DNA from: Oscillospiraceae bacterium
GTDB taxonomy: Bacteria > Bacillota > Clostridia > Oscillospirales > Oscillospiraceae
Length of the DNA stretch: 64,000 nucleotides
Direction of reading: 5' to 3'
Assembly: GCA_017412585.1 (NCBI GenBank)
Contig: JAFPXK010000084.1
Span: 1-64,000 of the forward strand
Part shown: positions 9,146 to 20,045 of the stretch, piece after piece
Layout of the letters: every line of letters begins with the position of its first letter
Numbering within the stretch: position 1 is the stretch's first letter
Position numbers and translations under genes: made by a program
The notes under the pieces: generated by a model
Seen by the model: the letters and a program-made list of their open reading frames with translations, nothing else
The model's database searches: none
What the model was told of the DNA's origin: nothing

Positions 9146-9219
9146 GCAGGATTAGTACATTGGTAGTATGTCAGCTTCCCAAGCTGAAGAGGCGGGTTCG
9201 ATTCCCGTATCCTGCTCCA
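9146..9219 (+). tRNA. tRNA-Gly (anticodon CCC)
   Basis: The acceptor stem GCAGGAT pairs with ATCCTGC and the CCA end is encoded. The anticodon arm is TCAGC-TTCCCAA-GCTGA with anticodon CCC, which reads GGG glycine codons. The T arm is GCGGG-TTCGATT-CCCGT. The gene is a single tRNA with its own terminator immediately after it. Confidence 0.95.
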
Positions 9220-9221
9220 AC

Positions 9222-9258
9222 AAAAACGCGTGATTTGTCTACCAAATCACGCGTTTTT
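9222..9258 (+). terminator. Terminator of tRNA-Gly
   Basis: AAAAACGCGTGATTTG and CAAATCACGCGTTTTT form a perfect 16-bp stem with a 5-base loop, starting three bases after the tRNA end. The T run on the right side makes it a strong intrinsic terminator. Confidence 0.9.
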
Positions 9259-9405
9259 GAATGATGTTTGCCCTGTCGGTCAAATGATGTGTGCCCGCGG
9301 GCACATTGAGGCAAACATCGCATCATCGTGGCGCAAAGTGACGCAACACCATTTCGGAGCGCAGCGGAGATACATCATCAGCCGCCACCGGCGGCGACAT
9401 CATTT
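9259..9405. repeat. Hairpin-array repeat, ATGATGT/ACATCAT linker type
   Basis: No gene is seen between the tRNA terminator and truA. The stretch has AATGATGT linkers on the left and ACATCAT linkers on the right (last one ACATCATTT at 9397-9405). Between them lie the 14-base palindrome GTGCCCGCGGGCAC at 9291-9304, the stem GCCGCC/GGCGGC at 9381-9395, and a longer pairing of GATGTTTGCC with GGCAAACATC. The plan is the same as in the ATGAATT-type arrays at 2.2 and 17.5 kb but with another linker. Confidence 0.65.
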
Positions 9406-17445: not shown

Positions 17446-17603
17446 ATGAATTGGCGGCTGTGCCGCCGTGAATTGCCGCTTTGCGGCATGATTTGGCTGT
17501 GCCATGAATGGAATTGCGCCCCTATGCGCCGCAGCGCAATTCATGTGCCGCGAGGCACAATTCATGCCGTAAGGCAATTCATGCGTCCAGAGGCGCAATT
17601 CAT
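17446..17603. repeat. Hairpin-array repeat, ATGAATT/AATTCAT linker type (copy 2)
   Basis: Hairpins alternate with the linker ATGAATT on the left and AATTCAT on the right. Arms are GGCGGC/GCCGCC, GCCGC/GCGGC, GGC/GCC, a central AATTGCGC/GCGCAATT, GTGCC/GGCAC, GCC/GGC and GCG/CGC types. The central string ATGCGCCGCAGCGCAA (17524-17539) and the first arm are the same as in copy 1 at 2.2 kb, while the other stems differ. No protein is supported here. Confidence 0.75.
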
Positions 17604-19898: not shown

Positions 19899-20045
19899 GA
19901 GTCCTCCGCGGTGCGCTGCGGAGCCGGTCTCGCGCAATGGATGCCCACGAATCATGTCAGGCGGGGAACCGAGCAGCATTAAGAGGGAAGATCCATGTGC
20001 CGCGAGGGTGCCGGCTCCGTGGCCCACCGGGGAGGACTTGTTTTT
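19899..20045 (+). ncRNA. ffs: Signal recognition particle RNA (small 4.5S type)
   Basis: The RNA of the SRP binds Ffh and targets membrane and secreted proteins. The conserved tip is GTCAGGCGGGGAACCGAGCAGC (19955-19976), the S-domain motif. The rod folds on both sides: AGTCCTCC with GGAGGACT at the ends, GAGCCGG with CCGGCTC, CTCGCG with CGCGAG, and ATGGAT with ATCCAT. The length of about 140 bases and closure by helix 5 mean the Alu domain is missing, as in the small bacterial type. A T run (TTGTTTTT) follows the terminal helix. It lies just upstream of dnaX, a common arrangement in Bacillota. Confidence 0.93.

Follow-up and report, generated by a model that had tools for sequence, protein, structure and literature searches.

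What is the stretch of short mirrored repeats that stands directly behind a tRNA-Gly gene in a 64,000-nucleotide piece of an Oscillospiraceae genome (the window), and is it part of a wider class of elements? A preliminary description of positions 9259-9405 had proposed an array in which ATGATGT linkers on the left are mirrored by ACATCAT linkers on the right, and a superfamily with the same layout and other linkers; the inserted, mobile nature of such units was not recognised there. Our analysis indicates that the stretch is probably what is left of a small mobile gene cassette, namely its decayed left end. Such a cassette would not be autonomous and would insert directly 3' of the CCA encoded by tRNA and tmRNA genes, with the array as putative DNA recognition structure, an IVP protein as its candidate binder and a presumed enzyme acting in trans.

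The array behind tRNA-Gly

All four proposed heptamers are exact and in mirrored order, ATGATGT at 9261-9267 and 9284-9290 and ACATCAT at 9372-9378 and 9397-9403. ATGATGT occurs 14 times on both strands of the window against 3.8 expected, a number reached in 0 of 100 shuffles, and four of the 14 fall inside 143 bp at 9259-9405. The 14-base palindrome of the preliminary description is present as GTGCCCGCGGGCAC at 9291-9304, extendable to 8+8 at 9290-9305, as is its 6-bp GC stem, GCCGCC/GGCGGC (9381-9386/9390-9395). Three parts had been overlooked: a 10-bp long-range repeat that forms the conserved core (GATGTTTGCC at 9263-9272 and GGCAAACATC at 9310-9319), and two further right-side linkers, CATCAT within GCATCAT at 9320-9326 and a mutated ACACCAT at about 9346-9352. 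The linker count is thus two left and four right. The parts are as follows, with their basis in brackets.

9146-9219, + strand: tRNA-Gly(CCC) with encoded CCA at 9217-9219, the insertion target (ARAGORN, Rfam; insert-free genomes of the same genus match up to the CCA, then diverge)
9220-9259, + strand: left end of the insert with its own bidirectional terminator ACAAAAACGCGTGATTTGTCTACCAAATCACGCGTTTTTG (perfect 17-bp inverted repeat 9221-9237/9243-9259; native terminators of relatives are unrelated; same terminator type in other units)
9261-9284, + strand: linker L1 ATGATGT and hairpin 1 TTTGCCCTGTCGGTCAAA, with one mismatch relative to the family ...CGGGCAAA (sequence, consensus)
9284-9305, + strand: second left linker ATGATGT and hairpin 4 TGTGCCCGCGGGCACA; the family has four left units, of which two are lacking here (sequence, linker counts)
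9310-9326, + strand: conserved core GGCAAACATCGCATCAT, the right arm pairing with 9263-9272, and first right linker (repeat found; the exact core is the family search query)
9328-9352, + strand: hairpin 5 region and mutated second right linker ACACCAT (sequence against consensus)
9353-9378, + strand: hairpin 6 region and third right linker ACATCAT (sequence)
9381-9403, + strand: hairpin 7 GCCGCCACCGGCGGC and fourth right linker ACATCAT (sequence)

Elsewhere in the window, positions 19921-20020 are an ordinary bacterial small SRP RNA.

The array had been placed after the terminator of tRNA-Gly. Its location behind tRNA-Gly(CCC) and the 17-bp terminator stem both hold, but the terminator itself came with the insert. 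At the same locus, two genomes of the genus (G318 and G003) match the window up to ...CCTGCTCCA (CTCCA) and then continue into different native terminators with no array; since these insert-free genomes diverge exactly at the CCA, the terminator at 9221-9259 is that of the insert and not the native one.

Within the window's genome, which was examined by pattern searches and by the stretches around matches, the tandem ATGATGT pattern occurs only at 9259-9405, and the idea that these arrays form a repeat family inside that genome was rejected on this single copy. RNA folding of the window copy alone was no better than shuffles (z -1.1 and -0.6) and is uninformative, so that the case rests on comparison with other genomes. 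A terminator or insulator of purely local role, its palindromes arisen by chance, would fit both the lone tandem copy and the near-shuffled fold energy; it is refuted by the 4+4 architecture kept in other genera and families, by empty sites and by linkage to PF05635 (all described below), and we regard it as extremely improbable.

A fixed architecture in gut Clostridia

A search with the stretch at 9259-9405 returned several copies, from another genome of the genus and from two further families of the order; most of those that were read stood 3' of a terminator and a tRNA. Searching a genome collection with the core GGCAAACATCGCATCAYNGNG yielded at least 117 stretches, from assemblies whose titles point to gut Clostridia, and the ATGATG class was present in 28 of 295 genomes of the order and 22 of 149 genera, with no match for a reversed-pattern control. 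Further copies, whose absence had been named as grounds for refutation, therefore exist in number, in other genomes though not in the window's own. In the viral collection IMG/VR the same core matched three contigs only, and the phage and plasmid collections searched gave no match. One IMG/VR contig labelled viral (L168:1-2456) carries three array copies within 1 kb together with an ATTTCAT-linker array.

We collected 144 copies from gut Clostridia, one pair being the window copy counted twice. Their consensus begins with a terminator of the form ACAAAAAA-stem-TTTTTT-GA, followed by four ATGATG-hairpin repeats, the core GGCAAACATCGCATCAT and then CATCAT linkers separated by hairpins; in many copies a TTGACA-17-TATAAT promoter, a ribosome site and a gene come after the array, and whole units span about 0.6-1.2 kb. 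Among 124 countable copies the left linkers number four in 103, the right linkers four in 100 and both in 85. The array is a fixed architecture of four ATGATG linkers, a core and four CATCAT linkers with hairpins between them, not a set of chance palindromes.

Many other linker classes share the mirrored layout, as the proposed superfamily predicted. Linker and long-range core arm change jointly from class to class: ATGATGTTTGCC/GGCAAACATCGCATCAT, ATGATATCCGTTCC/GGAACGGATATCCTATCAT, CTAAGTGTTCCGC/GCGGAACACTTAACTTCAC and ACGAAATTCGCC/GGCGAATTTCATTTCAC. Linkers and stems had been thought to evolve together; in fact the core stem alone co-evolves with the linker, since the short hairpin stems vary freely within one linker class. 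Linker and core arm presumably make up the class-specific sequence. Hairpin arms differ widely between copies and keep their complementarity. Stem covariation in the ATGATG class is moderate, since 65-85% complementarity survives re-dealing of the arms.

The window copy itself has a core repeat with the linker repeated on its left and the reverse-complemented linker on its right, as 2+4, and stands directly after an encoded tRNA CCA with its own terminator. Nothing of the intact unit's promoter, IVP gene, cargo or right end is present 3' of 9403. The copy is decayed, having lost two left units and everything 3' of the array, and is most likely inert.

Insertion behind the CCA end of tRNA genes

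Sixty-six of 114 copies lie 31-49 nt 3' of a tRNA, with 29 anticodons represented. Directly after an encoded CCA begin 66 of 69 tRNA-adjacent copies, a proportion that, depending on how many tRNA genes encode CCA, may simply reflect a start after the tRNA gene. Left flanks were readable in 116 copies: 68 follow an intact tRNA, six follow a tRNA 3' remnant and ten follow the right end of a preceding unit; in about 19 of the remaining 32, judged by eye, a CCA stands directly before the unit. Just upstream of three units (L046, L024 and L124) we observed displaced tRNA 3' ends in which the T-arm appears to contain an extra hairpin-rich insert (GGATTCGAA...CGAATCC...CCA). Targets extend beyond tRNA genes. 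At L049:4316-4898 (minus strand) an array resembling the Rfam class Gut-1 stands behind a tmRNA gene whose 3' end lies about 44 nt before it, which makes the tRNA-like end of tmRNA a target as well.

Occupied and empty sites could be compared at tRNA-Leu(CAA) within the genus. Two different units occupy this site, one in G000 and G318 and the other in G320, with flanks common to both and exact junctions (GGCACCA joined to CAAGAAA, and ACACGCA joined to GAAAAGCAGCCC); other genomes have it empty. The smaller unit, about 0.6 kb long, has no more than a terminator, an array and an IVP gene. At their right end units carry NNCA, which abuts the native terminator or the next unit, and in tandem units this right end lies between them, with two imperfect direct repeats in those read. 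Complete single-gene units between two arrays were seen at L017:951-2401, L034, L107 and L167, with right-end imperfect direct repeats ACACCTTTTnnnCGTTTTTACC ... ACACCTTTTnnnCG. These sequence comparisons show an insertion 3' of tRNA CCA ends that is precise, repeated and polymorphic between close relatives, by a compact unit with its own terminator.

Gene content and linkage to PF05635

An IVP gene (23S_rRNA_IVP; PF05635 at 7e-28, TIGR02436 at 1e-30) stands 3' of the array in 33 of 123 assessable ATGATG copies, mostly at a fixed offset, and is followed by an overlapping, variable gene; the window copy has none. The product is a four-helix-bundle protein with one solved relative (2rld). IVP proteins are described as uncharacterised and encoded within rRNA insertions (PMC11270868), and as related to the retroelement protein Avd (PMC10053308). 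The first genes 3' of the array fall into 93 mutually unrelated clusters among 114 and include NUDIX, GNAT, glyoxalase, GDSL, polysaccharide deacetylase and nucleotidyltransferase proteins, integron-like in kind. Because the IVP gene is absent from 90 of the 123 copies, it may be a passenger and not a mobility factor. An intact unit comprises its own terminator, a mirrored 4+4 array around the core, a promoter, often an IVP gene, one variable passenger gene and an NNCA right end.

An independent start from PF05635 led back to the same arrays. We searched 117 genomes of the order, of which 52 carry PF05635 (0 of 14 control genomes), and 89 gene neighbourhoods were usable. A mirrored 7-mer array lies upstream of the PF05635 gene in 66 of 89, compared with 15 of 89 control segments and 1 of 89 shuffled ones; arrays of at least 4+4 were found 35, 2 and 0 times, of 89 each. 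A same-strand tRNA stands within 420 nt upstream of the PF05635 gene in 35 of 89 neighbourhoods and in 0 of 89 controls. Linkers vary between these loci across many classes. Mirrored plain 7-8 bp repeats without hairpins (TTTTCACT.../...AGTGAAAA) were seen upstream of PF05635 at L253, L271 and L267, in the first two cases 3' of a tRNA and terminator, and may be simpler relatives of the hairpin arrays.

The classes upstream of PF05635 include the ATGAATT class, represented twice in the window:

2177-2345, + strand: ATGAATT-class mirrored array; no tRNA upstream (the window has a single tRNA)
17446-17603, + strand: ATGAATT-class mirrored array with four left and four right linkers by eye (sequence)

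The tandem ATGAATT pattern has 14 matches in the window's genome and none for the reversed control. That genome holds two PF05635 genes. The first stands behind a tRNA-Leu with a GTGAAAT-type array and a GNAT gene, and the second (G000:C79, L275) lies between two ATGAATT arrays with no tRNA upstream. Since ATGAATT arrays flank a PF05635 gene there, the window's arrays at 2177 and 17446 belong to the same superfamily, which bears out the comparison with the ATGAATT class that had been proposed. This class seems to have left the tRNA target.

Loop polarity and the level at which the array acts

Loops of the hairpins are strongly patterned. Left-half triloops read TNC in 133 of 150 cases, with a closing C-G in 148 of 150; in the right half, triloops read GNA in 76 of 95 (closing C-G in 91 of 95) and tetraloops GNNA in 23 of 26. 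Background hairpins of the window show the left and right patterns in 10 and 5 of 83. C(GNA)G loops, which form unusually stable DNA mini-hairpins, are thus on the bottom strand in the left half and on the top strand in the right half; the polarity is weaker in other linker classes. This restriction to one strand per half suggests a DNA-level structure rather than RNA.

An alternative holds that the array is a structured noncoding RNA, as in the Rfam class Gut-1, that acts as RNA, the tRNA merely providing read-through transcription. Left halves of the GAAAT, GATAT and AGTTAT classes do match Gut-1 (RF01706; threshold 50) with up to 72.5 bits (L199), and Gut-1 is listed as an RNA by Weinberg et al. 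2010 (PMC2864571); the window copy has no match even at E<=1, and the ATGATG class is unmatched as well. In the same arrays, however, the right half matches Gut-1 on the opposite strand, with lower scores, which means that the two halves cannot both stand in the modelled orientation on the same transcript. Moreover, the array sits between a terminator and a promoter, and units are gained or lost as DNA. A reading of the loops as UUCG RNA tetraloops was rejected: stems are in register only around a three-base loop, as C(TNC)G and C(GNA)G triloops and not C(UNCG)G tetraloops, which also speaks against an RNA. We consider this alternative unlikely.

Candidate routes of insertion

No recombinase is encoded in the units and none recurs nearby (three phage integrases among 150 neighbouring ORFs), so the insertion reaction remains a proposal; no circular or excised form was observed. 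The strongest rival, which we take to be possible though on balance doubtful, is that a conventional tyrosine recombinase, belonging to some larger element that targets tRNA genes, works on the units in trans, making them cis-mobilisable or integron-cassette-like, with an accessory or regulatory array. It would account for the exact junction at the tRNA 3' end, the tandem units and the diverse single-gene cargo, but a target range of 29 anticodons and tmRNA is unlike that of a usual tRNA integrase, and integrases are not enriched near the units.

Mobility through an RNA intermediate, with IVP acting like its homologue Avd beside a reverse transcriptase and the tRNA 3' CCA as entry point, draws on the Avd relationship (PMC10053308) and on the fact that many tRNA genes are entered directly 3' of the CCA, a feature generic to tRNAs. 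RVT_1 (PF00078) is, however, present in only 3 of 15 unit-bearing genomes and missing from the window's own, and we rate this route as quite unlikely. REP- or MITE-like repeats moved by a resident IS200/IS605-type Y1 transposase, RAYT-like, would be in keeping with the subterminal hairpins, the low copy number and an insertion that follows a short motif on its 3' side and leaves no obvious target duplication. Against this, Y1_Tnp (PF01797) shows no association with IVP (15 of 52 genomes with IVP, 13 of 65 others), and neither the window's genome nor G033 and G038, with seven and nine IVP genes, contains it; such an origin is highly improbable. Y1 transposases and reverse transcriptases are not required residents of unit-bearing genomes.

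In the mobile-cassette reading that we prefer, the unit's own terminator would keep the target tRNA terminated, and the mirrored array would be a DNA recognition structure, its hairpins presenting C(GNA)G loops on a single strand of each half. Its probable binder is the IVP protein that many units encode, and an enzyme supplied in trans would cut and join at the CCA end. Whether this amounts to a new kind of cassette, lacking its own recombinase, recognised through an IVP-bound array of mirrored DNA mini-hairpins, inserting behind the CCA of many tRNA-like genes, protecting its target by a terminator and moving single variable genes between gut Clostridia, we put at a little short of an even chance. 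If true, PF05635 proteins and the Gut-1 motif would share one function, and a widespread gut-bacterial gene-sharing system would so far have been annotated piecemeal, as an 'RNA' and a hypothetical protein. The model is testable, since it predicts the junction sequences, the target rule and the protein partner, and the target rule prompts one to ask how a DNA insertion reaction could recognise so generic an end as that of tRNA.

Comparison with known systems

The openly searchable literature on tRNA cassettes, IVP function, Gut-1 and palindromic repeats, with subscription papers outside its reach, yielded no description of the whole unit; Gut-1 and IVP are each known yet unexplained. tRNA-targeting islands and cis-mobilisable elements share the precise insertion at tRNA 3' ends and the occupied/empty polymorphism, but the units measure about 0.6-1.2 kb, have no integrase and are not tied to one tRNA. 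REP/RAYT and MITE elements are likewise palindromic repeats that spread; the units differ in showing no terminal inverted repeats, in their fixed tRNA target and gene cargo, and in having no Y1 dependence. Integron cassettes (attC) are similar in carrying single small cargo genes of similar kinds, in forming tandem arrays and in having a hairpin-forming sequence per unit. The units here, in contrast, have their own promoter and terminator, a tRNA CCA location and a 4+4 array instead of a single folded attC, and no integron integrase lies nearby, the phage-integrase-family proteins being the 3 among 150 neighbouring ORFs.

rRNA intervening sequences with an IVP ORF (PF05635; PMC11270868) encode the same protein family and insert in or at a structured RNA gene, whereas our units sit behind tRNA and tmRNA genes, not inside an rRNA helix, and add the mirrored hairpin array, a promoter and cargo. 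The publication on Gut-1 describes an RNA with no known function, encountered only in human gut sequences (Weinberg et al. 2010, PMC2864571). The left halves of several classes fit the Gut-1 model, linker-hairpin-linker-hairpin-linker-hairpin-linker with GUGAAAU linkers; in our units, Gut-1 makes up one side of a mirrored element that has a tRNA target, an IVP gene and cargo. The unit thereby joins three unexplained things, the Gut-1 RNA motif, the 23S_rRNA_IVP family and the hairpin-linker arrays of gut Clostridia.
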